DNA from: a virus
Direction: 5' to 3' (one strand)
Virus record (IMG/VR): IMGVR_UViG_3300035698_006348
Coordinates: 22,464-86,463 of that record
Length of the DNA stretch: 64,000 bases
In this document: one piece after another, positions 1,472-55,304 of the stretch
Layout of the letters: every line of letters starts with the position of its first letter
How positions within the stretch are numbered: the first letter of the stretch is position 1
Made by a program: the position numbers and the translations under genes
The notes under the pieces: generated by a model
What the model was told of the DNA's origin: nothing
The model's database searches: none
What the model saw: only the letters and a program-made list of their open reading frames with translations

Positions 1472-1840
1472 ATGGAGAACAAAATGGTTAAAGAATTACT
1501 TACAGAAAAAGAACTAATGGAAAAAGTAAAACAAGCAAATAATATAATGAAACTTAGATATGATAGTGATGATTTTAGTATGATATGGGTCTTACGTTTT
1601 AAGTATAATGGAAATAATGATTACTTTATATATAATGCAGAGGGAGACTATAATATCTTTATTTCTCCATATTATATATCTATCTCTGGAAATATGGGAG
1701 CAATTATGAAGTTTTTTGACAATCATTATGGAAATATTTTCCCAAAATTAGAAATAGACTCAGAAACAATGGAAGTTATGTTAGAAGAATGGCGTGGATT
1801 TAATAAACTAATGCCTATTATAAGTGGAGAGGATAAATAA
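1472..1840 (+). CDS. Hypothetical small protein
   Basis: 122 residues, starting at an ATG preceded by a good AAGGAG site eight bases upstream. It begins with a helical, charged N-terminus (many Lys and Glu) and continues with a beta-rich middle containing many Tyr. I recognise no family. It sits directly upstream of the RNA ligase gene with only 1 bp between them, so it is probably co-expressed with it. No membrane segment or signal peptide. Confidence 0.65.
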   Translation: MENKMVKELLTEKELMEKVKQANNIMKLRYDSDDFSMIWVLRFKYNGNNDYFIYNAEGDYNIFISPYYISISGNMGAIMKFFDNHYGNIFPKLEIDSETMEVMLEEWRGFNKLMPIISGEDK

Positions 1841-1841
1841 A

Positions 1842-3059
1842 ATGTTAAAAATTTCTGGTAAATATAATGAAGCAGTAGTATATGCAAATGAAGTTGAAGA
1901 GACTGCCAAAGACCAAATCATTGAATTGTGTAACCAACAATTTACTGCTGGATGGGCTATTAGAATGATGCCAGATTTACATGCTGGTGCTGGATGTGTA
2001 ATTGGAACAACTATTGATCTGAAAGAGAATAAGAAGATTGTACCAAACCTCATTGGGGTAGATATTGGCTGTGGGGTTAGAGTTGTACATCTAGGAAAGG
2101 TGGATATTGATTTTGATAAATTAGAAAACTTTATTAGAACAAATATCCCAACTGGATTTCATGTTAGAAGTAAACCTCATAGGTTATTGGAAGAAACAAG
2201 ACTACGTGATCTATGCTGTTATTCAGATGTTTACAAGCCAAAGCATAAATTAGCCATTGGAACTCTCGGAAGTGGCAATCATTTTATTGAGATAGATAAA
2301 GATAACCAAGGAAATAAATATTTACTAATCCATACTGGTAGTAGAAATTTAGGGTTCAGGATAGCTAATTTTTGGCAAAGAAGAGCTATTGAGACCATTG
2401 GTATAGCCAAAATTAAATATAGGGAGGATGTAATTGCCCATGCAAAGAAAACAAATGAAGAAGGTACTATCCAAGATAGACTTAAAGGAAATTTTTTAAG
2501 GACACCACCAGAGGCATTGTGTTATCTAGAAGGAGTAAACTTTGATGGTTACATGATGGATATGAAGGTAGCCCAGGAATATGCAGAGCTAAACAGAAAA
2601 GCCATAGCAGAGGTTATCATCGAAGGTATGGGATTTACACCTATTCATCAATTCTCATCGGTCCATAACTATATTGAAGATTCAAGAATTATTAGAAAAG
2701 GTGCAGTCTCTGCCAAAGAGGGTGAACGGCTAATTATCCCAATCAATATGAGGGATGGGGCTTTACTATGTGCTGGTCTTGGGAATAAAGATGCAAACTA
2801 TTCTGCTCCACACGGGGCTGGTAGACTATATTCACGTGGTGATGCAAAGAGAAAACTTAGCATGGCTACATATGAAAGTGAGATGTCTGAGGTTTATACA
2901 ACAAGTGTAACTCCAGAAACTCTTGATGAATGTGCTGGAGCGTATAAACCAATAGAAGAGATTATTAAAAACATTGATACTCTGGTAACAGTTACTGAAC
3001 ATATAGTACCAGTATACTCACTAAAGGATATCCCAGAGAAAAGAAGAAGGAGAAGGTAA
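1842..3059 (+). CDS. rtcB: RNA-splicing ligase RtcB
   Basis: 405 residues, the usual length for the family. RtcB joins RNA ends carrying 2',3'-cyclic or 3'-phosphate to 5'-OH ends, using GTP and Mn2+. Visible motifs: PDLHAGAG (about 44-51), GVDIGCG with Asp74 and Cys77 as metal ligands, GSGNHF (about 143-148), IHTGSR with His164, VHNY with His275, and the guanylylation motif PHGAGR with His324. All key residues seem present, so it is probably active. The ATG at 1842 is preferred over the upstream open frame because GGAGAGG lies just upstream. It ends in a TAATG overlap with the next gene. In phages the enzyme is thought to repair tRNA or other RNA cut by host defence nucleases; that role is inferred here. 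Confidence 0.95.
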   Translation: MLKISGKYNEAVVYANEVEETAKDQIIELCNQQFTAGWAIRMMPDLHAGAGCVIGTTIDLKENKKIVPNLIGVDIGCGVRVVHLGKVDIDFDKLENFIRTNIPTGFHVRSKPHRLLEETRLRDLCCYSDVYKPKHKLAIGTLGSGNHFIEIDKDNQGNKYLLIHTGSRNLGFRIANFWQRRAIETIGIAKIKYREDVIAHAKKTNEEGTIQDRLKGNFLRTPPEALCYLEGVNFDGYMMDMKVAQEYAELNRKAIAEVIIEGMGFTPIHQFSSVHNYIEDSRIIRKGAVSAKEGERLIIPINMRDGALLCAGLGNKDANYSAPHGAGRLYSRGDAKRKLSMATYESEMSEVYTTSVTPETLDECAGAYKPIEEIIKNIDTLVTVTEHIVPVYSLKDIPEKRRRRR

Positions 3060-5517: not shown

Positions 5518-5540
5518 TAAAATAGTTTTACTTAATTAAA

Positions 5541-5577
5541 AAGAGCCCGATGGGAAAGTCCATCGGGCTCTTTTTTT
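5541..5577. terminator. Bidirectional intrinsic terminator between convergent operons
   Basis: A perfect 13-bp GC-rich stem (AAGAGCCCGATGG pairing with CCATCGGGCTCTT, 5541-5553 and 5560-5572) with a 6-nt loop, followed by a run of T on the + strand. On the opposite strand the stem is followed by TTTTAATT, so it can stop transcription from both sides. It lies exactly between the rightward operon and the convergent leftward operon. Confidence 0.93.
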
Positions 5578-5586
5578 ATGGTTATA

Positions 5587-7890
5587 TCATTTATTCAGTA
5601 TCTGGAAAAACTTAGATTTATCTCTGTAAATTGTGCCTCCTTTTAACTCTGACTTCCACATATAAATATACATAGCAAATACTTCATCTACTGTAGTATT
5701 AGTTGGACAATTAATTGTTTTACTAATACTATTGGTAATATACTCTTGCCATGCTGATTGCATGTTTACATGGTCTTTCCAATCAAGATCATGAGCAGTA
5801 ATAAATACTTCCTTAAGCTTATCTGGAACTCCATCTATATCTTGTAGTGAGCCTTTAGCTATAATTTCTTTCTTTATTTCCTCTAAATTTTCAACCCCAT
5901 ATTCTTCTAGTTTTCTAAATAGAATTGGGTTTACTTCTACAATCTTATCCTTTACAGAATTACCAACACCCTCTGTTATATATCTAGTGTAAGCTAAAGC
6001 AAAGAATGGTTCAATACCAGAATTTACTCCAGCTAGTAAAGCAATACTTCCTGTTGGTGCTATTGATGTAACTGATACATTCCGTAATGGAAAGTCAGTA
6101 CGTTCAATAGGTTTATTTATTCCAGATAGTGGGGAATTTAATACTCTATTTACTGATGAGAAGTCAATCTGCTCCGCATCATAATCAGGAAATGTTCCGC
6201 GTTCTTCTGCAAGTACATTTGACTCCAATATAGCAAAGAATGAAATAAACCATCCTAAATAATTTGCGAGAGTTATAGCATCTTTGGAATTATATGGCAT
6301 CTCCAGCTCTGCTAACAAATCAGCAAACCCCATAACACCTACACCAAGCCTACGCAATGCTTTGGATGTAGTGTTGATTTCATCAATCTGGGTCTCCGAG
6401 ATCGTCTGAACATTATCAAGAAATCTTACGGACTTTCTAACTAAAAACTCTAAGAACTCTAAATTGAGTGCCTTCGTGTTAAAATCATATACACTATGTA
6501 AGTTAATACTACCTAAGCAACATGATTCATGTGGTAATAGGGGGACTTCACCGCATGGGTTGGTCGTATCTATATCTCCCTTATACTTCCTAACTATATT
6601 ATCTTTGTTTACTCTATCTAAGAATAGAATTCCTGGATCTCCAGACTCCCAAGCCCGTAAAGCAATATTATATAAAATAGCTCTGGCTGGTACAGTTTTT
6701 ACTACCTTCTTATCAACAACAGATAATAAATTCCAATTCTTATCCTCAATAACTGCTTCCATAAAATCATCTGTAATTCCAATAGAGACATTGAAATGAG
6801 TTAGTTGATTGTTCTGTAATACATGAGATAAATCTTCAATGTTTCCAGCATCCTTAGAATACGCCTGGAATTCACTAATCAGGCGTTTATTTTTTTCAGT
6901 TAATGTAGATTTATAATCTATAAATTCAATAACATCTGGATGAGTAATATTCATAATACCCATCTGTGCTCCTCTTCTAGAAGCCTGTTGTATTACTTCT
7001 CCTGTATGGTCAAACAAGGTCATAAAAGATAATGGACCAGAATTATGTGAAATAAATCCATTTGCAATAAAATTATGAAACGGCTTTTTCATCGCTAAAT
7101 CATACACCTTCTCAATACCAACATATTCAATGGAAATAATCTTATCAAAGTATATTTCCTTGTGTAATCTTGGATTTCCTACTGCAATTAAGTCTCCAAC
7201 AGAGAATTGTTTTGTTTCTTGCCAATCATGTTTAGAATTTAAAAACCTATGATTACTTGTCGCCTTTATTGAATATCCGTCTTCTGTGGTTATTTTATAG
7301 ACCTTTTCCTCTCCATTGTAAATAATATCCACTATACTATTTAGACCCAATGAATTATTTTCTTTCATACACCTAATAAGAGGAAAAACCTTGCCTCTAG
7401 ACCTTCTATCAAATAATGTGGAAAGAGTTACTTCCTCTTTTTGTTTCCATCTTGCACTATCTTTATATACAACTGTGTCACCAGTCAAACAAGCCTTACC
7501 TCCAGTAGTTTTTATCTCAGCACCCTTTTCTCTAATACGAGAGAAATTATATCCTACTCCCCCTCCCCAAGCAAACACTTCAGCAGACTTACCTAAAGCA
7601 TCATATAATGATTTTCGTGAGTCCTCTATTGGAATCACAAAGCAGTTCATAAGATTCTTTATACCAGTACCAGCATTAGCTATAACTCTCCCACCTGGAA
7701 GAAAAGCATTATTACTAATCATATTGAAGAAGTCTCCAGCTAACTTGGAGACTTCTTCTTTTGTTTTACCATATGAAAGTTCTGCATTAGCCACTGTTGA
7801 ACTTACTCTCCAGCAAGCCTCTTCCCATGTTTCTTTTGGATCCACAGCATACTTCATCTTGAATATTCTGTTTGCTACATCATTTAACAT
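5587..7890 (-). CDS. nrdJ: Adenosylcobalamin-type (class II-like) ribonucleotide reductase with mini-intein
   Basis: 767 residues including a 150-residue intein (134-283), leaving a 617-residue enzyme. It reduces ribonucleotides to deoxyribonucleotides for phage DNA synthesis. Visible: MNCFVIP with Cys83 (first redox Cys), GGGVGYNFSRIRE, SGPLSFM, RRGAQMG, and NPCGEVP with the thiyl-radical Cys446 and Glu448, then ESCC with the second redox Cys at +11, and APTGSIALLAG. This matches the class II spacing. The usual C-terminal tail with a CxxC pair and zinc ribbon is absent: the protein stops at FFQILNK just before a terminator. A separate 42-residue ribbon protein at 26379-26507 may supply it. 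An AAGGGA site precedes the ATG. It is the last gene of the leftward operon. Confidence 0.93.
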   Translation of the reverse strand: MLNDVANRIFKMKYAVDPKETWEEACWRVSSTVANAELSYGKTKEEVSKLAGDFFNMISNNAFLPGGRVIANAGTGIKNLMNCFVIPIEDSRKSLYDALGKSAEVFAWGGGVGYNFSRIREKGAEIKTTGGKACLTGDTVVYKDSARWKQKEEVTLSTLFDRRSRGKVFPLIRCMKENNSLGLNSIVDIIYNGEEKVYKITTEDGYSIKATSNHRFLNSKHDWQETKQFSVGDLIAVGNPRLHKEIYFDKIISIEYVGIEKVYDLAMKKPFHNFIANGFISHNSGPLSFMTLFDHTGEVIQQASRRGAQMGIMNITHPDVIEFIDYKSTLTEKNKRLISEFQAYSKDAGNIEDLSHVLQNNQLTHFNVSIGITDDFMEAVIEDKNWNLLSVVDKKVVKTVPARAILYNIALRAWESGDPGILFLDRVNKDNIVRKYKGDIDTTNPCGEVPLLPHESCCLGSINLHSVYDFNTKALNLEFLEFLVRKSVRFLDNVQTISETQIDEINTTSKALRRLGVGVMGFADLLAELEMPYNSKDAITLANYLGWFISFFAILESNVLAEERGTFPDYDAEQIDFSSVNRVLNSPLSGINKPIERTDFPLRNVSVTSIAPTGSIALLAGVNSGIEPFFALAYTRYITEGVGNSVKDKIVEVNPILFRKLEEYGVENLEEIKKEIIAKGSLQDIDGVPDKLKEVFITAHDLDWKDHVNMQSAWQEYITNSISKTINCPTNTTVDEVFAMYIYMWKSELKGGTIYRDKSKFFQILNK
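7042..7491 (-). mobile_element. Mini-intein in ribonucleotide reductase (no endonuclease)
   Basis: 150 residues inserted between GGKA and SGPLSFM of the reductase. It begins with Cys (CLTGDTVVY, block A), has a block B-like TSNHRFL, and ends with FHNFIANGFISHN followed by Ser as the +1 residue, all standard for protein splicing. No LAGLIDADG or HNH motif and no room for one, so the homing endonuclease has been lost or was never present. It should splice itself out to give active enzyme. The boundaries follow from the splice motifs and the uninterrupted extein sequence. Confidence 0.93.
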
Positions 7891-35443: not shown

Positions 35444-36361
35444 ATGAATAAAAAACTTTTAGTAGGAATAGGTACTTTCGGGCTATTGGAATATACAAAA
35501 CTAGCAATTAAATCAATTAAAGATACAGTAAAGAAAACAGACTATGATATATTACTTATAGTTGGTAAGAATGGGGATGTTGAAACAATAAATTATGCAA
35601 AGGCAAATGGACTAAAACATATAGTCCATACAACTAATAAAGGATTTCCGGCCTCTATAAATGATATGTATGATTATGCTTGGAAAGATAATGCTTATGA
35701 ATATTTGCTTATTATGGGAAATGATGTTATAGCTTATCCATATGCTGTTGATTCAATGGTAGAGGTAGCTGATACCACATTATATGATTGGGTATGCTCA
35801 AGAGAATTTAGTGTGCAAGCTCTTGTAAAAGCATTTCCAGTAACTTCCTCCTATTTTACAGGAAAAGCTTTCAAGTATAAATTTGGAAGTGGCCCATGTT
35901 GGGAATACTTTGATAAGTATAAAGAAAAGATTACAGTTAGCACCTCTGGTATGTCTGATACTCATAACTTAGGGTTATATAAGAAATCAATTTTTGATAA
36001 GGTTGGATATATTGATGTAAATTTCTATCCAGCCTACTTTGAAGATAATGACTTTGCAAGGCGGTCTATGTTAGCAAATGTGAAATCTTGTACAGTTGAT
36101 AATGCTTTTTATTTCCATTTCTGGAGTAGAGTTATAAACGAAGGCTCTGGAGGATCAACTCCAAAATATTTCTCAAATAATCAGCAGTATTATATACAGA
36201 AATGGGGTGGACTCTTTACAAAAGAATTATATGATTTACCATTTAATGGAAATGGGCATACCTTAGATGGAGACATATTTTTAAAATCAGAAATAAAAAT
36301 AACGTCTAGAGAGGATGAACTCAATATAGCTAAATATTGGACACATCTTGGGAGTGGTTAA
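35444..36361 (+). CDS. Family 2 glycosyltransferase
   Basis: 305 residues. N-terminal KLLVGIGTFGLLEYTKLAI, then TTNKGFPASINDMYDYA and LLIMGNDVIAYP (DxD-equivalent NDV), then GYIDVNFYPAYFEDNDFARR, the GT2 acceptor motif (ED). Transfers a sugar from a nucleotide donor. Last gene of the island; its stop overlaps the terminase start. Confidence 0.85.
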   Translation: MNKKLLVGIGTFGLLEYTKLAIKSIKDTVKKTDYDILLIVGKNGDVETINYAKANGLKHIVHTTNKGFPASINDMYDYAWKDNAYEYLLIMGNDVIAYPYAVDSMVEVADTTLYDWVCSREFSVQALVKAFPVTSSYFTGKAFKYKFGSGPCWEYFDKYKEKITVSTSGMSDTHNLGLYKKSIFDKVGYIDVNFYPAYFEDNDFARRSMLANVKSCTVDNAFYFHFWSRVINEGSGGSTPKYFSNNQQYYIQKWGGLFTKELYDLPFNGNGHTLDGDIFLKSEIKITSREDELNIAKYWTHLGSG

Positions 36362-39102
36362 TGGCACTAATTGAGAATGTGAATCAAGAGGATTTAATTC
36401 TTTATGAAATATTAAAGCATCCAGTATTATCTGGTGAGTTCCTTCAAAACTTAGATAGACTCGAACATGAAGATATTTTTAAGTTTGAGTGGTATCAGGT
36501 GGATTTTTTAGCTGATTTTGCTAAGCAAGTGTCTATTGCTTGTGGAAGGGCTGTTGGGAAGACAGTTAGTCTAACTAATATGACTATATGGTTACTTATA
36601 AATAAGATTTTCCCAGAAGATTATATAGTATATACAGTTCCAAGTAAGGTTCATTTAGATCCAGTTTTTACATCTCTTACTAGAATGTTTAGAAGTAACT
36701 CTTTATTAAAGAATTTTTTACAGGCAAAGAAAGGGATAAATGGTTCTGATTTTACAATAAACCTTTTAAATGGCACAACACTAATGTGTCGTATAGCTGG
36801 CCAATCTGGAACTGGGGCTAATGTTATTGGTTTACATACACCATTTATAATTCTTGATGAGTGTATTGTTGGTACTCAGCATGTTGCTATGCCAACTTGT
36901 AATAAAACAGCAGATAATGTAAAAGTTGGAGATTCCATATTATCATGGAATGGTGAATCTATTGAAGAGGATAGAGTTATAAATGTTCGCCGTACCAAAA
37001 GAGAGCAAAAAGTTTTAGAGGTTGTATATGATTCTGGGAAAATTAGAGTAGGAGAAAATCATAAAATATATACAGATAATGGATATGTTAAAGCCTCAGA
37101 GTTAGTAGTAGGTGATAATATATACTATACTGAAACTACTAGAAGTAATCTGCCATGGACGAAGAAAGATTATAAAATTTTGGAAAAGAATGTTCAAGTT
37201 GGAATTCGTGTAAAAGAAGTAGCAAAAATACTAAATCGTTCTGAGCAGTCTGTTTTTAGTAAAATAGAGAAAAAATATACTTCTACCCACAATTTATTTT
37301 ATTCTAAGCCCCTAACAGAAAAGCAATTAGATATAATTAGGGGATCATTATTAGGAGATGGGTCTACAGCAATATACACAAAAACTGCATCATACTCTAC
37401 TAATCATAGTTTAAAACAAAAAGAGTACGTTGATTGGTTATATACTGAATTGAAATCAATTACTAGATGTAAACCACGAATTTATAAAAATGGTGGCTAT
37501 GGTGAATATAACTATGCCTTTTCAACGCTAGGTCATCCAGAGATTTTTGATATTGTTTCAAAATTATACATAAATGGTAAAAAGACAGTTACACGAGAGT
37601 ATTTAGATAAATTATCAAAATTAGCATTGGCTGTATGGTGGATGGATGATGGATCAAATAGTGGTGTATTGTCTTCACATTCTTTCTCAAAAGAAGAAAA
37701 TGAAATTGTAATTGAGTGGATGAAGGATACTTTTTCAATAAATTGTAAATTATATAAAGATAAAAAAAGAAACTTATATTTTATAATATTTCCTGCAAAA
37801 TCTAAAAGAGAACTAAATAAGCTTTTAGCCCCCTATATGCATAAGGCTATGAAATATAAAGTAGGTATAGGGAAATATAATAATGAATATACCTTACCAA
37901 ATATTGAACTTATTGGTAAAGGCGAAGATAATAAATCATTAGTAAAAAAAGTAGTACTTAATATTAGAGAGGTAAATACAAGGGCTGCTTATCTTTATAA
38001 CTTTGAAGTTGAAAAGAATCATAACTATTTTGTAAATGGTATTCTTACTAAAAATTCTGGTTACTACCCCTGGGGCACATGGTTAGAGTTACAACCAACA
38101 CGTAATACTTGGACACCTGGAAGTAGGATTATTACATCAGGAGTTCCAACAGGTTTACGGGAATCAAATGTTCTGTATAATACAGACATGGTAGATGGGG
38201 GATATATGAAACATAGAATAAGTGCATATGATAACCCACGATTTACAAAAGAAGACGAAGAAAATGCCATAGCTCAATATGGTGGAAAAGATGGTGAGGA
38301 TTTTACTCACTTTATTATGGGTAGGCATGGTAAACCATTATATTCATTATTTGACAGATCCTTATTTAAGGTTGAACCCTATCCAGTATACAAACTGAAG
38401 ATAAATGGTCTAAAAATGACAGGGGATATTGCTGAGTATCTTACAAGAATAAGAACAATTCCAAATACTGATGAAGGTGTTGAAACAATTATTGGAATTG
38501 ACTTAGGTTATACTGAACCGACAGCTATTGTTGTAATGTATAAAAATAAGAAAGGCAGATTTAAATTTCATTGTAGAATAGAATTGAAGAAAGTTCCATA
38601 TCCTATACAAGAGATTATAATAGATTTACTAGATACAAAGTTTGCTCCTTTTAAAATAGGAATTGATAAAGGTAGTTCAGGTATTTCAGTAATCCAGAAC
38701 CTAACTAGTAATTTAAAATATGGTCATAAAAATTATGAAGATATTATTGTACCAGTTGATTTCTCATCTTCAATAGTAATTGGTTTAGATGCAGATGGTG
38801 CAGAAATAAAATCAAAGACAAAGCCATTCTCTACTTCAATTTTACAAGATTACTCAAATAATCATAAAATAGTTTATTCGTCAACAGATTTGGAAATGAT
38901 AACTGAACTTGAACGAATGTCATATACTAAAACCCCATCTGGTGATATTGTATATAAAACTTTAACCCAAAGAGGTGGGACACGGGGAGAAGATCACTTT
39001 ACTGCTGCTATGCTTTGTTTTTCATTATCAAATTATTTGTATACAGATTATATAAATATGCGAAGAACTAGAAAATTAGCAGCCCCAACATGGATACGTT
39101 AA
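36361..39102 (+). CDS. terL: Terminase large subunit with LAGLIDADG intein
   Basis: 913 residues; removal of the intein (168-565) gives a 515-residue terminase. ATPase and nuclease that cut and pump DNA into the procapsid. Walker A is CGRAVGKTVS (61-70), Walker B FIILDE (162-167). Nuclease domain: IIGIDLGYTEPTAIVV, IGIDKGSSG and RGEDHFTAAMLCF give the metal-binding acidic residues. ATG at 36361 is used (GGGAG upstream); the open frame upstream belongs to the previous gene's shadow. Head of the virion gene block, followed by portal. Confidence 0.95.
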   Translation: MALIENVNQEDLILYEILKHPVLSGEFLQNLDRLEHEDIFKFEWYQVDFLADFAKQVSIACGRAVGKTVSLTNMTIWLLINKIFPEDYIVYTVPSKVHLDPVFTSLTRMFRSNSLLKNFLQAKKGINGSDFTINLLNGTTLMCRIAGQSGTGANVIGLHTPFIILDECIVGTQHVAMPTCNKTADNVKVGDSILSWNGESIEEDRVINVRRTKREQKVLEVVYDSGKIRVGENHKIYTDNGYVKASELVVGDNIYYTETTRSNLPWTKKDYKILEKNVQVGIRVKEVAKILNRSEQSVFSKIEKKYTSTHNLFYSKPLTEKQLDIIRGSLLGDGSTAIYTKTASYSTNHSLKQKEYVDWLYTELKSITRCKPRIYKNGGYGEYNYAFSTLGHPEIFDIVSKLYINGKKTVTREYLDKLSKLALAVWWMDDGSNSGVLSSHSFSKEENEIVIEWMKDTFSINCKLYKDKKRNLYFIIFPAKSKRELNKLLAPYMHKAMKYKVGIGKYNNEYTLPNIELIGKGEDNKSLVKKVVLNIREVNTRAAYLYNFEVEKNHNYFVNGILTKNSGYYPWGTWLELQPTRNTWTPGSRIITSGVPTGLRESNVLYNTDMVDGGYMKHRISAYDNPRFTKEDEENAIAQYGGKDGEDFTHFIMGRHGKPLYSLFDRSLFKVEPYPVYKLKINGLKMTGDIAEYLTRIRTIPNTDEGVETIIGIDLGYTEPTAIVVMYKNKKGRFKFHCRIELKKVPYPIQEIIIDLLDTKFAPFKIGIDKGSSGISVIQNLTSNLKYGHKNYEDIIVPVDFSSSIVIGLDADGAEIKSKTKPFSTSILQDYSNNHKIVYSSTDLEMITELERMSYTKTPSGDIVYKTLTQRGGTRGEDHFTAAMLCFSLSNYLYTDYINMRRTRKLAAPTWIR
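36862..38055 (+). mobile_element. Intein with LAGLIDADG homing endonuclease in terL
   Basis: 398 residues between LDE and SGYYPWGTW. Starts with Cys (CIVGTQHVAM), block B-like VGENHKIYT, two LAGLIDADG motifs (DIIRGSLLGDGST and LALAVWWMDDGSN), an HTH-like insert (VKEVAKILNRSEQSVFSKI), and block F/G YNFEVEKNHNYFVNGILTKN then Ser. All splicing residues are present. The insertion is directly after the Walker B glutamate, the most conserved spot of the host protein. Confidence 0.95.
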
Positions 39103-47970: not shown

Positions 47971-49155
47971 ATGGCACGTTTATCAATTCCATCAAAAGAA
48001 CTACAGCTAATGATCGTTGGTTCTATTGATTCATTCAAAGCTTCACGTATTCAGCGTCTTTCACTTAACACTGATGTACCAAGTACCACCATCGATGAGC
48101 TAGGTAATTCTACCCATGTAGGCGATGTAAAAGACATTCCCAATGTAACACTAACATTTAGTGCAATGGATGTGGGAGTCAAAGTCTTTTCAGCACTTAC
48201 TGGGACAGATTCAACAGCTTATCCTGGTGCTGGTGTTGATATTTCAGAACTAGGTGAAATGGATGCAATCATCTATGTCAAAAGTTCAACAGTAGAAGAT
48301 TATGTAAAATCTGCTCATGCTCGTAAACTACAAGTCAGAGATTTTGCTTTCAATTATTCTATTGATGGTGAATCAACAGAAGATTATACAGCAGTTGGCT
48401 CTGAAAAACGTTGGTTTACTAATGATGTGTATACAGAAACACAGACTGTTGGTACTACATCCTTTACTTTAACTGAGACTCCAATTGTCCTTAAAAACGG
48501 TAATTATGCTTTATCAGTTATTTTAGATGGTACATATTTAGATGAAGTATCAGTTGCACCAGCTACTGGAGAATATCGGATTGTTGGAGACACTCTTACT
48601 ACATTTGATTCAATGTCAGCTACAATAGTTTTGGTATACCAGGCTGCTCCATCAGGAACTAACTGGGCAGATGTATCAGATACAGCTTCAGCTATTGCAA
48701 TCAGAGGTATGGATGCTCCTGTAGAAATTGCTGCTAATTCAATTCCTCGTATACAAACTTTGACTATCAACGGGACATTGAATTCTGAGGGAGTAAAAGA
48801 ACTCGGTAATAGACAGATGGTAGGCTATCAGACACAGGTTCCAGAAGTTACGGGAACAATTACTGTGTTAGATACAGATACTGAGCTACTTAGCCTATTA
48901 CAATATGGTGTTACTTCCTCTGGTACTGAATATAGTCCAGGAGAAGGTTGTGCTACAACTGGAATCACATTACTTGTTGAATTGCAAGATCCATGTGATG
49001 CAGTCTCACCTTATGATGTTCTAAAGAGTGTATATCTTGACTCTGTAACAATCGTTGGAGATTCATATACATCTAATGTTAATCAAAATGCTACACAGAC
49101 ATTCAATTTCAAATCAACGACAGGGGCTTGTGTTGTATATAGTGGAGCAATATAA
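47971..49155 (+). CDS. Major tail (tube) protein with internal duplication
   Basis: 394 residues, TAGGAGG upstream. Two related domains: the N-half has RIQRLSLNTDVPSTTI, DELGNSTHVGDV and IPNVTLTFS; the C-half has RIQTLTINGTLNSEGV, ELGNRQMVGY and VPEVTGTITV. Tube proteins of siphoviruses are usually 150-250 residues with one domain, so this looks like a fused duplicate, which may form a thicker tube or a trimer-like ring. It precedes the chaperone and tape measure genes. Confidence 0.82.
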   Translation: MARLSIPSKELQLMIVGSIDSFKASRIQRLSLNTDVPSTTIDELGNSTHVGDVKDIPNVTLTFSAMDVGVKVFSALTGTDSTAYPGAGVDISELGEMDAIIYVKSSTVEDYVKSAHARKLQVRDFAFNYSIDGESTEDYTAVGSEKRWFTNDVYTETQTVGTTSFTLTETPIVLKNGNYALSVILDGTYLDEVSVAPATGEYRIVGDTLTTFDSMSATIVLVYQAAPSGTNWADVSDTASAIAIRGMDAPVEIAANSIPRIQTLTINGTLNSEGVKELGNRQMVGYQTQVPEVTGTITVLDTDTELLSLLQYGVTSSGTEYSPGEGCATTGITLLVELQDPCDAVSPYDVLKSVYLDSVTIVGDSYTSNVNQNATQTFNFKSTTGACVVYSGAI

Positions 49156-49178
49156 ATTATAGTTTATAGGAGTTTGAT

Positions 49179-49697
49179 ATGGGTAGGAAAAAAAGCACAG
49201 TAGATTTTTATTCAGTGAAGACTGAATGTGCTTGTGGCTGTGGTGGAATTATAATGAATCCAGACGATCACTACAGATGGCGTAAGTTTTTACCTAACCA
49301 TGCTAATACTAATGGTACGCATCCGCAAATTGGACGAACAGAACCAGACATAAATGTAGAGAGGAGATTGGATTCCCTTTTGAAAACACTTAGGAAAAAG
49401 GGTCCAACCTGTTTAGAAAGGGATTTATTCCTATATTTAGATACTAAAGGTATCGAGTATGTTCAACAGAAAAGAATAAAACGGACAATTGCGGATGCGT
49501 ATGTACCAAAATATGAGTTAGTAGTATTTGCTGATGGTGCTTATTGGCATGACATGGAACAAAACAAAGAAAAAGATATACGGCATAATAAAATGCTAGA
49601 AGATATGGGTTACACAGTTATAAGGTTACGGTCCACAAATCATGGAAAGGCTCTAGATTTTACTAATTTGGAGCGGTTTCTAGACAAATATGCGTAG
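49179..49697 (+). CDS. Free-standing Vsr-like homing endonuclease
   Basis: 172 residues. N-terminal zinc-type CACGCGGIIMNP and RWRKFLPNHAN, as found in phage HNH/Vsr endonucleases, then a PD-(D/E)XK/EDxHD core: CLERDLFLYLD, VFADGAYWHD, EKDIRHNKMLEDMGY and IRLRST. It lies between tail tube and chaperone genes where no virion function is expected, so it is probably a selfish homing element. A terminator follows. Confidence 0.75.
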   Translation: MGRKKSTVDFYSVKTECACGCGGIIMNPDDHYRWRKFLPNHANTNGTHPQIGRTEPDINVERRLDSLLKTLRKKGPTCLERDLFLYLDTKGIEYVQQKRIKRTIADAYVPKYELVVFADGAYWHDMEQNKEKDIRHNKMLEDMGYTVIRLRSTNHGKALDFTNLERFLDKYA

Positions 49698-49720
49698 TCA
49701 TATGCTAAAGGAGCTTTCTA

Positions 49721-49738
49721 ATGGGACTTAACCACTAA
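49721..49738 (+). other. Five-codon ORF overlapping terminator arm
   Basis: AAAGGAG, seven bases, then ATG GGA CTT AAC CAC TAA. The short ORF covers the left arm of the terminator that follows. Ribosomes starting here would melt the stem, so translation could relieve termination. It may also be chance or a leftover of an older gene start. Confidence 0.4.
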
Positions 49739-49769
49739 TATACTATATTAATGGTTAAGTCCCTTTTTT
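49723..49769 (+). terminator. Intrinsic terminator between tail tube/endonuclease and chaperone genes
   Basis: GGGACTTAACCA (49723-49734) pairs with TGGTTAAGTCCC (49752-49763), extended past one mismatch by TAATATA/TATATTA around a single C, then six T. Strong rightward terminator. It should lower tape-measure region expression compared with tube protein. Confidence 0.92.
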
Positions 49770-49799
49770 ATTATATACATAGGAAAGGAAGAGAGAATT

Positions 49800-50510
49800 A
49801 TGAATCCAGAAAGAAACGATATTGATGTATCAGCACTATTCGCTTGGGGTAACACCTTTAAAATAGTCGATGGAAATAGTAAAGTTATTATTGAATACTA
49901 TATGAGACTTCCCTCAGATGGTGAGTTAAATAGAGCTAGAGTATATGCACTAAGAAAGAGTGCTGCTCTTCGTAAGTTATTGAGTGACCCAACTTCTGAA
50001 CAACGGGAAGCTTTTGTTGCTGATGAGGTTATTGTAAGTAAAGATAATCTTATTGGATATATCCTAAATTTAGATTCTAGAGATGTATTTGTTGATGCTG
50101 CAAAAGAAGTAAAATTACCATTTCCAAAAGAACCAAAATCTGATGCATCCTTAGAAGTACAAGAAAAGTATCAAGAAGAGATTGATACCTTCGATGATAG
50201 ACTTAGTGCTTTAGTTAAAGAAAGAGTAATGAAAGTTTTTGAAGATAAAAAAGTAGCTTTGGAGATTAGAACAAAAGAAGATTTATTTGAATCTTATGTA
50301 CAAACTGTAATTAAATCAATGTGTGAAGAGGAATTATCATCTCAATTTAAACAGGCTAGTATATATTATAGTTCATTTTTTAATGACGATTGTAAACTAA
50401 AATTATTCAAATCTATAGATGATGTAGTTAAATTACCATCTTATGTTATTGAACAGTTTATTAGTAACTATAACAGCCTTGACATTGAGATTTCAAACCT
50501 AAAAAAATAG
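49800..50510 (+). CDS. Tail assembly chaperone, 0-frame (gpG-like)
   Basis: 236 residues. Helical protein located directly before a short overlapping ORF and the tape measure gene, the standard position of the G/GT chaperones. Contains a charged middle (LPFPKEPKSDASLEVQEKY). It ends in ISNLKK at a run of seven A. GGAAGAG lies upstream of the ATG. Most ribosomes make this form; a fraction shift to the extended form. Confidence 0.82.
   Translation: MNPERNDIDVSALFAWGNTFKIVDGNSKVIIEYYMRLPSDGELNRARVYALRKSAALRKLLSDPTSEQREAFVADEVIVSKDNLIGYILNLDSRDVFVDAAKEVKLPFPKEPKSDASLEVQEKYQEEIDTFDDRLSALVKERVMKVFEDKKVALEIRTKEDLFESYVQTVIKSMCEEELSSQFKQASIYYSSFFNDDCKLKLFKSIDDVVKLPSYVIEQFISNYNSLDIEISNLKK
50501..50507 (+). 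promoter_or_regulatory. -1 programmed ribosomal frameshift site
   Basis: A AAA AAA in the reading frame of the gene, directly before its TAG stop. After a -1 slip the frame continues as ATA GCT CGT and runs into the ORF ending at 50797. Nine bases downstream an 8-bp stem forms, GCAATGCC (50517-50524) with GGCATTGC (50551-50558), a typical stimulator. Confidence 0.88.
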
Positions 50511-50797
50511 CTCGTAGCAATGCCATAGCTGGAACTTGGCAGATAACAAAGGCATTGCGGATACCCCTAGACCAAAAACTACAGGATACAAATTACACAC
50601 CATATACAATATCCTATGTAATACGTAAACGTTTACAGATAGATGGGTACAACGAGCTTCCGAAAGATAAACGACCACCAAATGAAATGATATGGGATGG
50701 TTCTCCAGAAGAGTTAGATGATTGGATGGATACGGTATTTGATAGAAATAAATCCCAAACAGTGGAGTTTGATATATCAGAAGATGAGATAGGATAA
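50507..50797 (+). CDS. Tail assembly chaperone extension (GT-like, -1 frame)
   Basis: 96 further residues read after the frameshift, giving a fusion of about 332 residues. The extension is charged and ends acidic (VEFDISEDEIG). It has no ATG near its start and no ribosome binding site, only a TTG at 50555, which supports expression by frameshift only. Such fusions bind tape measure and tube protein during tail assembly. Its stop lies 1 bp before the tape measure ATG. Confidence 0.85.
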   Translation: MARSNAIAGTWQITKALRIPLDQKLQDTNYTPYTISYVIRKRLQIDGYNELPKDKRPPNEMIWDGSPEELDDWMDTVFDRNKSQTVEFDISEDEIG

Positions 50798-50798
50798 T

Positions 50799-53700
50799 AT
50801 GGCAAATATTAACAGTAAAGCACAAGAAATTGAAAATAGAATAATAAGTATGATCCTCGATAGAATAAATGTAAATATTGAGGCAAGGCTTGCTAAGGGT
50901 GGGGATGATGTAGTCATTGATATGGGCAAAGTAAATAGGGCTGTCCAAAAATTAATTAATGACAAGCTAATGCCAGAAAAACTTCTTATAGGAACTTCTG
51001 CTGGAGGGGCTGGTATACAAGTTCGTACAGGAGAATTTGTAAAAGAGTTTCAGAAGCTTGTTACCAATATGCAAACAAAGGTAATAACTGACCTAGAAAA
51101 AGCTACTAGTGCTACATCCTTTATGAATGCAGAGGGGGATAAGATACAGTCTGGTGAAAATAGGAGTTTAGGTACAGGTGGAAGTAGTACCAACTCAGCG
51201 GCTGCTGCAAATATACATAATATGCAGGTAATTCTGAATAAATTCCCACAGGCTTTTGCTAAAATAGAAACAATGCTTAAAGGCTCTGGTGGTTTTGACC
51301 AATCAAAAGTAGAGGTTAGTTCAAAGACTTCTTTAGGAGAATTAGGCACAAGTTTTACTACAATCAAAGCAAAAGCAATTGATGCTGGAAAAAGTATCAG
51401 AGAACTAACTCTTGTTATCGATGAAACTGGCAAAGTGTCAGAGGGTGCTGCTTATAAAGAGAAAAAAGCCATAGAAAAGCGTGCAACTAATGAACAAGTT
51501 CGTGATGCTGCAAGAGCAAAAAGAGCTATAAAAGATGCAGATGCTGAACGTCAAAAGATGGCTCTCTCATTTAAAGAGGATATAAAGACTTTACGTACAG
51601 ATTTTCCAAAAGCTTTTGAAGCTATTTATAAAGCAGACCCACAGATGTTTGCTAATCAGGGAACTGCTAGTGTTAAAACAACTACTGATTCCTCTACTGG
51701 CATTACAAAAATAGCTGCTGCTTATGATGATGCTCATGGCTCAGTGAGACAAGTAAACGTAGCAATGGATCGTACTGGAACTATCTTACGTGATACATCA
51801 AGGCGGTTTGCCACCTTTACTAGTTCCCTTCGTAGAAATATGGGAGAATTCTTCAAGTGGTCTTTAGCTATTGCTCTTGTATATGGGCCATTAAGTAAGT
51901 TACAGGAATTAGTAGAAGTTGCTGTTAAAAACCAATCTGCATTAGCTGATGTTGCTGTAACTTTAGGAAAGAGCACAGAGTCCCTGAATAGCATATTTAG
52001 TGAGGCTGCTGATATAGCAGATGAGACAGCTTCCTCTGTGAATTCCGTTTTGGAAAGTTATGACCTAGCTTTTAGAGCCACAGCAGGGCTAACAGATGAA
52101 ACAGAGAGGTTTGCCGCTGCAAATACTTTATTGAAAGATTCAATTATTTTATCTAAACTGACTGGAATGGAACAAGCAGAAGCAACAGATACACTTGCTG
52201 CTGCATTACGTCAGGCTGGATTAGAATTGGATAAGGGCTCTGATTTACTAGACACTTGGGTGAAAGTCTCAAGAATTGCTAATGTAGATGTTGAAACACT
52301 AGCAACTACATTTGGTATGGTTGGAGATGCAGCTAAAAATGCTGGGCTAGATATCAATGAATTGAATGGGCTCATTGCTGTTGTTGCTGCTACTGGTATT
52401 ACTTCAGCTAAAGAAACAGGTACTGCTGTTAGAGCACTGGTTTCTGGTTATACAACAACTGCTGCTGTAAAAGAACTTCGTCAGTTTGGTATTAGTATAA
52501 AAAATGCTGAGGGAGATGCCCTTGGATTTAATGAGGTTATGACTACAGTTAGACAGTCTTTTGAGAAGGGACTGATATCAACACCACAATTAAATACTAT
52601 TGGTTATGCAATTGGTGGTGGAAGTAGACGGGCTGCTCAAGCTGTAACTGTTATAGCAAATCAAGAAGAGGCTCTCCGTGTTGCAGCAGAGTCAATGAAT
52701 GCTTATGGTGAGGCAGCTAAAGCTGTTGATATAAAATTAGGTACTGTGGAGTCAAAAACAACCAAGTTAGGTAATGCTTTTCAATATGTTGCTCAAATGC
52801 TTGGAACAAAGGGTGGCGTACTAGACTCATTTGGTATGTTACTAGACCTAATGACTAAAATTGTTAATGCTACTGGTTCTTTTACTGGGACTTTAGGATC
52901 AGCTGCCCCTGTACTTGCTGGACTCGGTATAATGAATATGGCCACGTCTAGTTCACAGCGAGCTGGAGCATTACAGGGTGGTCTTACTTGGGCAATGGGG
53001 AAAGTAAACCAAAATAAATATAAATCAGAAGCCTCAGCTTTGACTGATAATCAGTTACTTAAATATAGTGGGATGGGACTAAGTACAAGTGAATCTCGTA
53101 CTGCCTACGGAATAGATAAGACAAATCAAGCAGGAAAAGCTGCTTATGATAAGATATCCCCCTATGCTGGTGGTATAATGGCAACAGCCTTTATGACTGG
53201 TATTGAAGCGTCAAAAGGAGATTTTGCTGGTGCTGGTGTTATTATGGGTGTTGGTATCCTTAGTACAATTAAAGGTGGTAATATTGGAGGTACGATAGGG
53301 GCAACAATAGCTTCTGCTATCGTTAGTGGTATATATGAATATTCAAAGTCAGTAAAAGAATCTCCATTTTCATTTAATATACCAAAAGCAGAGGTAGTTG
53401 ATAGCACTAAAGCAGAATTTTCTGGGGAGTCTGCACAAGACAGGCTAATGAAAATGGCAGGTGGTCCAATTCTGCCTTGGATTATAAAAACAATTGATAG
53501 TATGAGTAAACCATTTACAGCAGATGATAAACAAGCTAATTTAACAGATGCGGATGCAGCTTTAATTGCTGCTTCGCTGTTAAATGTACGTGATGAATCT
53601 CTTGGGATTGATAATACAGCTGTACTCTCAGAACTCAGAGATATAATATCTGGTAGAGATGCAGAAATGGGGAATAACTACGGAGAAACAACAGCCTTTG

Positions 53701-55304
53701 GACGGGCAATGACTGTACCAAAAGGAATAGATGAACTTGAAAATACAATTATAGATGATTTACGTGACCAGCTTTATAATTTATCTGGGGCAGAAATGTC
53801 ATCAGCAGAGTTTTTACGAAAACGTGGTAAAGCAGAAACACTTGGTGGGTCTATTCCACAATTACTTCCAGCCCTTACTGGTAATTTTGGTCCAGGTGGT
53901 GCTAGAATGGGTGAAGAAGAGGCACAGAGAAAATTAGCTAACATTCTTGTTGAGGGATCAACAGACCAAATTGATATGGTGAATTCTATAAATGCTTCTA
54001 TAGCTCAGCTTGGAAATTTACTGGATATAAATAAAAATCGTGGTGGATCTATTACTATTGGAGATAAAGAGTATTCAGTAGATGAAGCAACTGCAAAATT
54101 GGGAACCTACTTAGATGATTTTGCAGAGATTGTAAATGTAATTGACGAACAACTAAAGCTAAGTGCTGCTAAAATACCTACAACAATGTCCCTTGATTTT
54201 GTAAATGAGACTGATATTGAAACAGTAAGGCAAGCAGCAATAGACTCCCAAACCACTTTTTATGAGAAACTATTTGAAGACGAAAAACCAGATGAGGCTA
54301 ATAAGCAAAAAGTATTAGATGCCGCTCAAGAGTTTTATGTAAAATTCGGTGAAGAGCTTTTGTTAGTAAGTGGTGCAGACCCAACAGTATTCCAAAATAT
54401 GTTTAATAAGTATGCTGAAGATAATTTAATAGACATTGGTAAGACAGATAATCTTGGTATACGTTCTATGGATGTATTACCAGAACAAACTGGTGAACTG
54501 TTTGCTCAGTATAATAAACTACTTGCAGAGGCTGAACGAGTTTCTGGTGGTAGATATAAAGAAAATAAAGAAGAGTCTGTTGTTATTCTTGGTGATAAAA
54601 CAATGGATATCTGGGAAGCTGATTGGACTTTATTGATGTTAGCTATGGAAGAAATCATTGATCTTGAAAGAAAACAGGTGGAAGGTATATATAACTTACC
54701 ATCAGATGGTACATTCTTTGTTCCTTGGCAAGCAGCAGCTATACGCCCAACTGGTGGTTCTACAAGCATTACAAACAATACAACAAACAATACTGATAGC
54801 TTAGTAAATGATGCAACTACGAGTGGTTATACTGATCCTGGGGATGTTTTCTCTAGGGAAGCTGGTATACCTTCAAAAGTAGCAAAAGTTATAATAGACA
54901 AAGCCCTTGGTATAACACAACAAAGTTTAAATGGCTCTGCTGGTGATTTCTCTGGTGGCATAAGTGGTGGAGAAGATTTAAGAAAGCAATTTGAAGGGCA
55001 TGATCTTAGAAAGCCATTCACTGGACATAACCTAAGAAAACCATTTACTGGGCATGACATAGGTGGATTTACTGGTAGAAATCAGAGTGAGGATGTAAAT
55101 CAGGGATCAGTCCTCTCTATGCTAAAAGAAATGGCTACTTCAAATAAAGAGTTTGCAACAAAGCTAAACTTAAACGTAGATACTACAATTAGAGTTATGC
55201 TAGATGGCAGAGTTGTAGCAAATGCTGTAAAGCAATACCTATATAAAGATTTGATAAGGGCTTCTCGTTCAGGTAGTAATGTTTCAAGGAATTTGGTGAT
55301 ATAA
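50799..55304 (+). CDS. Tail tape measure protein
   Basis: 1501 residues. Sets tail length; at about 1.5 Å per residue this gives a tail near 220 nm. The central domain (around 340-640) has the TP901-type core: ETLATTFGMVGDAAKNAG, ELNGLIAVVAATGITSA and GTAVRALVSGYTTTAAV. Further hydrophobic Ala/Gly-rich helices follow (about 780-850). Near the C-terminus is a tandem 9-residue repeat of the form GHDLRKPFT. No peptidase or muramidase domain is seen. Confidence 0.95.
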   Translation: MANINSKAQEIENRIISMILDRINVNIEARLAKGGDDVVIDMGKVNRAVQKLINDKLMPEKLLIGTSAGGAGIQVRTGEFVKEFQKLVTNMQTKVITDLEKATSATSFMNAEGDKIQSGENRSLGTGGSSTNSAAAANIHNMQVILNKFPQAFAKIETMLKGSGGFDQSKVEVSSKTSLGELGTSFTTIKAKAIDAGKSIRELTLVIDETGKVSEGAAYKEKKAIEKRATNEQVRDAARAKRAIKDADAERQKMALSFKEDIKTLRTDFPKAFEAIYKADPQMFANQGTASVKTTTDSSTGITKIAAAYDDAHGSVRQVNVAMDRTGTILRDTSRRFATFTSSLRRNMGEFFKWSLAIALVYGPLSKLQELVEVAVKNQSALADVAVTLGKSTESLNSIFSEAADIADETASSVNSVLESYDLAFRATAGLTDETERFAAANTLLKDSIILSKLTGMEQAEATDTLAAALRQAGLELDKGSDLLDTWVKVSRIANVDVETLATTFGMVGDAAKNAGLDINELNGLIAVVAATGITSAKETGTAVRALVSGYTTTAAVKELRQFGISIKNAEGDALGFNEVMTTVRQSFEKGLISTPQLNTIGYAIGGGSRRAAQAVTVIANQEEALRVAAESMNAYGEAAKAVDIKLGTVESKTTKLGNAFQYVAQMLGTKGGVLDSFGMLLDLMTKIVNATGSFTGTLGSAAPVLAGLGIMNMATSSSQRAGALQGGLTWAMGKVNQNKYKSEASALTDNQLLKYSGMGLSTSESRTAYGIDKTNQAGKAAYDKISPYAGGIMATAFMTGIEASKGDFAGAGVIMGVGILSTIKGGNIGGTIGATIASAIVSGIYEYSKSVKESPFSFNIPKAEVVDSTKAEFSGESAQDRLMKMAGGPILPWIIKTIDSMSKPFTADDKQANLTDADAALIAASLLNVRDESLGIDNTAVLSELRDIISGRDAEMGNNYGETTAFGRAMTVPKGIDELENTIIDDLRDQLYNLSGAEMSSAEFLRKRGKAETLGGSIPQLLPALTGNFGPGGARMGEEEAQRKLANILVEGSTDQIDMVNSINASIAQLGNLLDINKNRGGSITIGDKEYSVDEATAKLGTYLDDFAEIVNVIDEQLKLSAAKIPTTMSLDFVNETDIETVRQAAIDSQTTFYEKLFEDEKPDEANKQKVLDAAQEFYVKFGEELLLVSGADPTVFQNMFNKYAEDNLIDIGKTDNLGIRSMDVLPEQTGELFAQYNKLLAEAERVSGGRYKENKEESVVILGDKTMDIWEADWTLLMLAMEEIIDLERKQVEGIYNLPSDGTFFVPWQAAAIRPTGGSTSITNNTTNNTDSLVNDATTSGYTDPGDVFSREAGIPSKVAKVIIDKALGITQQSLNGSAGDFSGGISGGEDLRKQFEGHDLRKPFTGHNLRKPFTGHDIGGFTGRNQSEDVNQGSVLSMLKEMATSNKEFATKLNLNVDTTIRVMLDGRVVANAVKQYLYKDLIRASRSGSNVSRNLVI
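54969..55073 (+). repeat. Tandem 27-bp repeat inside the tape measure gene
   Basis: About three and a half units encoding LRKQFEGHD, LRKPFTGHN, LRKPFTGHD and a degenerate GGFTG end. Synonymous changes between units (AGAAAGCCATTC, AGAAAACCATTT) show the protein repeat is maintained. Likely a flexible or partner-binding tail. Confidence 0.8.

Follow-up and report, generated by a model that had tools for sequence, protein, structure and literature searches.

A hairpin with a U-rich tail, preceded by a Shine-Dalgarno (SD)-like AAAGG motif and by a short strand complementary to the inner part of its 5' arm, was found at the junction between the tail tube gene and the putative tail assembly chaperone gene in a family of uncultured tailed phages. 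On balance, this element appears to be a conserved transcriptional attenuator carrying its own antiterminator. The representative under study is a window of 64,000 nucleotides from a virus record that totals 86,463 bases, and the conservation of both the pairing and the motif emerged from comparison of this window with its relatives. A literature search for the junction element found no description of it.

In the window, the parts of the element follow one another on the plus strand. Strand U (AGTC, positions 49696 to 49699), which overlaps the stop codon TAG (49695 to 49697) of an upstream endonuclease gene, can form a short antiterminator pairing with GACT (49725 to 49728) in the 5' arm of the terminator, and this pairing covaries in the relatives. 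Downstream of strand U are located the SD-like motif AAAGGAG (49707 to 49713; core AAAGG, 49707 to 49711), arm A (GGGACTTAACCA, 49723 to 49734), arm B (TGGTTAAGTCCC, 49752 to 49763) and a T6 tract (49764 to 49769), and the next open reading frame (ORF) starts at 49800. Arms A and B form a 12-bp stem with a 17-nt loop (49723 to 49763), which together with T6 provides the G+C-containing stem-loop and the U-rich tract of an intrinsic terminator. The predicted fold of a 121-nt stretch has an energy of -32.3 kcal/mol (z -3.42), and none of 200 shuffled sequences folded as well. This hairpin was not picked up by a simple terminator scan of the window, because the loops allowed in that scan were limited to 3-8 nt. 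A scan of the whole window gave 10 terminator-like hairpins, among which the junction hairpin alone has both an upstream AAGG-type motif and a U:A score of 10 or more.

The gene upstream of the element (47971 to 49155, plus strand; 394 aa) was named the tail tube (major tail) protein gene from its place in the tail module; it has relatives in 34 loci and gave no match in Pfam or PHROG. Between this gene and the element lies a gene for a Vsr/DUF559-type endonuclease (49179 to 49697, plus strand; PF04480, E 3.8e-9; PF03852, E 3.6e-5). The gene downstream of the element (49800 to 50510, plus strand; 236 aa) has homologues at the equivalent place in relatives and no family match in Pfam or PHROG, and its assignment as a putative tail assembly chaperone (G) is based on its position before the tape measure protein gene (50799 to 55304, plus strand; PF10145, E 1.4e-19; phrog_28) and on a -1 slippery heptamer, A AAA AAA, just ahead of its stop codon. 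The gene ends in CTA AAA AAA TAG, with the slippery stretch at 50501 to 50507 (plus strand) and a -1 frame that runs on into an ORF at 50555 to 50797 as a putative G-T fusion, an arrangement resembling that of G/GT tail chaperones. The sequence CTAAAAAAATAG, or a near form of it, recurs at the end of the chaperone gene in many relatives.

Relatives were collected by scanning viral contigs (IMG/VR) for matches to the chaperone and to the tail tube protein, and both genes were located in 183 of 194 sequences. These 183 loci yielded 82 distinct junction sequences, of which 65 are short (87-172 nt), too short for an ORF of the endonuclease type, and 17, including that of the window, are long (273-1179 nt) and were tested separately. 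A set of 66 rows was composed of the 65 short junctions and the 3' part of the window junction; L151, in which the motif is absent, was left out of the motif-anchored tests for this reason, leaving 65 elements. In nearly all junctions, a hairpin with a U-rich tail is located between the tail tube and chaperone genes, the tail being present in 62 of the 65 elements and absent, by the rule used, from L003, L029 and L154. Of the 17 long junctions, 12 have all three parts, every one has the motif, and five fail the U:A threshold. An extra ORF is located 5' of the element in the window, L006, L065 and L120, and 3' of it in such loci as L035, L045 and L191. Since the element is retained with an extra ORF on either side, it is independent of which ORF ends just upstream. 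The inserted ORFs differ among the other relatives, on the 5' or the 3' side of the element, and thus the junction seems to be an insertion hot spot. A search of genome contigs gave no relative, and a search of a phage collection gave no relative of the chaperone and a single distant relative of the tail tube protein.

Strand U is found between the upstream gene and the motif, and is usually 4-7 nt long. Its pairing with arm A was evaluated by a helix score, for which U was taken from a 16-base stretch at the motif and A from nine arm bases, and was compared with the scores obtained after swapping of the U strands between loci; the swap tests were employed in place of a column-wise count of covariation because arm A was misaligned by MAFFT in a set of seven sequences. 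The mean U:A score of the 65 elements was 11.67 against 8.79 (sd 0.28) for swapped strands, and that of 36 representatives of 75%-identity clusters was 11.11 against 8.55 (sd 0.41), with none of 2000 swaps as high in either test. The 20 representatives whose arm A has no GGCT scored 10.2 against 7.9 after swapping, a single swap in 2000 being as high. In a less strict version of the test, in which the strands were wider, 37 representatives scored 11.38 against 9.74 (sd 0.36). The pairing is retained by differing helices, such as AGCC:GGCT, GACC:GGTC, AGTC:GACT (the helix of the window), TTATAGT:ACTATAA and GATAGC:GCTATC, and within one three-member clade (L069, L079, L147) three different compensated helices are present, AGACT:AGTCT, GGACT:AGTCC and AGATC:GGTCT. 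At least 28 changes of the arm-A label are counted on the tail-tube tree. In a partition-function test of the 65 elements, applied to the fold that precedes synthesis of arm B, at least two A bases were paired in 68% against 47% with swapped strands, a modest gap. A convincing U:A pairing is absent from L019, L022 and L109, and that of L102 is a weak one with G-U pairs.

Since U pairs with the inner half of A, U:A cannot coexist with A:B. Mutually exclusive antiterminator and terminator pairings are thus seen at the sequence level over the family, both in the swap tests and in the comparison with control hairpins given below, the window itself having a U:A helix of only 4 bp. In the predicted fold of the window transcript before synthesis of arm B, this helix does not dominate, the expected number of paired A bases being 0.1, and 4 bp can be expected to delay formation of the 12-bp terminator only slightly.

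The junction hairpin could also be a plain partial terminator that lowers expression of the chaperone and tape measure genes, with U as a leftover copy of arm B and AAAGG as a consequence of base composition. The near-universal presence of a U-tailed hairpin at the junction agrees with such a simple function, and so does the distant phage, a GC-rich one with 25% identity in the tail tube protein, which has a GC-rich hairpin at its junction with neither U nor AAAGG seen there. U, however, tracks arm A through many sequence changes, and the combination of U with AAAGG is rare at the other hairpins of these phages. Among 86 control terminator-like hairpins located elsewhere, in 20 stretches of 11 phage records and in the window, AAGG was present at three, a U:A score of at least 10 at 27 and both at one; the corresponding numbers for 37 junction representatives were 33, 29 and 26, in a comparison where the control rule (score of at least 24, at least 6 T of 10) differs slightly from the junction rule (best hairpin) and where some control hairpins may be chance hairpins inside genes. 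A loose pattern of the element matched four places in 20 records, all at the junction, and the exact pattern matched four of 2.9 million viral contigs, every one of them already among the junction contigs. Rfam gave no match in 10 loci, and for window positions 48900 to 50900 only matches below the curated gathering threshold. Taken with the swap tests, the rarity of U with AAAGG at other hairpins makes a plain partial terminator unlikely.

The AAAGG motif was analysed in the same set of junctions. In 65 of the 66 rows, including that of the window, a motif AAGG, GGAG or AGGA is located at a distance of 6-20 nt on the 5' side of the stem core; 200 shuffles gave such a motif in 14.5 rows on average and in 23 at most. 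After alignment at GG, the sequence is AGG in all 65 motifs, with A at -2 in 60 and A at -3 in 52, and the distance from GG to the stem core is 7-14 nt in 60. The base following GG is A in only 33 of the 65 motifs, against 64 of 65 for the SD sequences of the chaperone genes, and CsrA-type GGA binding was set aside on this ground. The median energy of anti-SD pairing is -5.4 kcal/mol for AAAGG, against -8.3 for the chaperone SDs and -2.4 for shuffles, as calculated with an assumed E. coli-type 16S 3' tail that may not be the tail of the host. Because AAAGG is unlike the SDs of the phages' own genes and its anti-SD pairing is weaker, binding of a 30S subunit at this site is uncertain.

An SD-like sequence without a following start codon is shared with the STAB-SD of cry3A mRNA, which is described as binding the 30S subunit without directing initiation and as blocking RNase J1 (PMC4113751). 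A stabilizer of this type, in which 30S at AAAGG and the hairpin would together shield the 3' end of the tube mRNA or the 5' end of the downstream mRNA, with termination as a secondary effect, is in agreement with the anti-SD pairing above the level of shuffles. It leaves the covarying U:A pairing and the U-rich tail unexplained, and the motif is AAAGG and not GGAG or a full SD, being placed mostly 7-14 nt before a terminator and within the loop of a covarying hairpin. Such a stabilizer is therefore an improbable explanation of the element.

Another possible partner of AAAGG is CCUUU at the base of arm B, since in many elements the base of arm A is itself AAAGG, allowing this pairing where CCUUU is present. 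A pseudoknot might then be formed by U with inner A and by AAAGG with CCUUU, breaking the terminator, or else a phage or host protein might bind AAAGG in the U:A loop. The AAAGG:CCUUU pairing is unsupported, because 18 of the 65 elements are without CCTT in arm B and tail and still keep the AGG-type motif, and no candidate for a binding protein was found; we consider this pair of mechanisms hardly probable.

In the window, the element includes a five-codon ORF, ATG GGA CTT AAC CAC TAA (MGLNH; 49721 to 49738, plus strand), which is located 7 nt downstream of AAAGGAG and overlaps arm A. The sequence thus bears out the description, in an earlier note on this DNA, of a small ORF with a strong ribosome binding site overlapping the 5' arm of a 12-bp terminator. 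That note went on to propose that translation of MGLNH opens the stem, so that read-through would be set by ribosome loading on the ORF. The SD spacing is good, and L004 has a comparable overlapping ORF, ATG AAA GGG GTC ACA CTT TAT TAA, both in favor of an attenuator with a leader peptide. An ATG at suitable spacing, however, was found in only four of the 65 elements (L004, L029, L069 and the window), where the expected number is 3.0 if the spacer is shuffled by dinucleotides and 13.7 if it is shuffled by mononucleotides; the nearest relative, L003, has no spaced ATG, and the peptides MGLNH of the window and MKGVTLY of L004 have no common run of residues. A conserved translated short ORF overlapping the switch is thus not present among relatives with the equivalent terminator, an outcome that the note itself had named as refuting, and the chance-level occurrence of the spaced ATG rules out the small ORF as a conserved unit. 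A leader-peptide attenuator is accordingly quite improbable. By the mononucleotide shuffles, start codons seemed to be depleted in the interval from AAAGG to the stem; this was dropped, since the effect is absent with dinucleotide shuffles. The wider proposal of an attenuator within a phage late operon gained support from the conserved U:A pairing that excludes the terminator, and lost the part assigned to translation of the small ORF. As judged from these comparisons, the small ORF is incidental, unlike the ribosome-site-like motif, and a ribosome may yet be engaged at the AAAGG site, because this SD-like sequence is kept without a start codon.

From the conserved parts, we infer termination at A:B, competition by U:A and a reader of AAAGG. 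On exit of RNA polymerase from the tail tube gene, which would be highly expressed, formation of U:A would come first and would delay that of A:B. A fraction of the transcripts would stop at A:B and the remainder would continue into the genes for the low-copy chaperone and tape measure, the ratio between terminating A:B and competing U:A fixing the amount that passes. AAAGG would be exposed in the U:A loop, mostly 7-14 nt on the 5' side of the stem, and its binder, for which a 30S subunit or a ribosome fresh from termination, acting with no start codon, is the likeliest candidate, would block A:B and raise the read-through. In the window, the five-codon ORF would happen to supply a start codon at this site, the design of the attenuator being independent of it.

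A more specific version of this attenuator, which we regard as speculative, is a ribosome trap free of a start codon, in which AAAGG in the U:A loop would capture 30S or the ribosome ending the upstream gene and the footprint would keep arm A open. A 30S-based reading is possible because trailing ribosomes are known to block terminator hairpins (PMC5021804) and an SD without a start codon binds 30S in cry3A mRNA (PMC4113751). If the trap operates, entry of transcription into the chaperone and tape measure genes would report translation of the tail module, and reading of AAAGG by ribosomes in this manner would represent a form of translation-coupled antitermination lacking a leader peptide. Tailed phages need many tail tube subunits and few chaperones and tape measures, and a conserved attenuator placed exactly between the tube and chaperone genes would meet this demand of tail stoichiometry by means of a cis-acting RNA.

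Attenuators with alternative terminator and antiterminator are known for the amino-acid and pyrBI operons. The junction element is similar to these in the serial arrangement of strands U, A and B, in the mutual exclusion of U:A and A:B, and in a possible input from ribosomes, but is different with respect to the absence of a conserved leader peptide, the short U:A of usually just 4-7 bp, and the location inside a phage late operon behind a structural gene instead of in a 5' leader.

In phage lambda, genes V, G/T and H presumably encode the tube, the chaperones and the tape measure, respectively. The lambda tail genes are arranged as V followed by G, T and H (J02459), the same order as at the junction, but the gap between V and G is only 15 nt, leaving no room for such an element. 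In phage T5 (AY543070), a "putative rho-independent transcription terminator" is annotated upstream of T5.141 and pb2 in the late tail region. Like the junction element, this T5 terminator falls within the tail gene cluster, behind structural tail genes; unlike the junction element, neither a U strand nor AAAGG was seen by eye at the T5 site. At positions 1545 to 1630 (minus strand) of L219, a T5 annotated putative terminator is located directly behind the major head protein gene, and a terminator may be a common feature behind structural genes with high expression. A strong 17-bp terminator-like hairpin that has T runs on both strands is also present at window positions 5538 to 5575, without U strand and AAAGG.

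Some other genes of the window were recognized along with those of the tail module. The large subunit of ribonucleotide reductase (5587 to 7890, minus strand) includes a match to an intein splicing domain (PF14890) at residues 184-283. A terminase-like protein (36337 to 39102, plus strand) contains an internal match to a LAGLIDADG homing endonuclease (phrog_11023, phrog_38), which is probably an intein. In addition, a gene for an RtcB-type RNA ligase (PF01139) is located at 1824 to 3059 on the plus strand.
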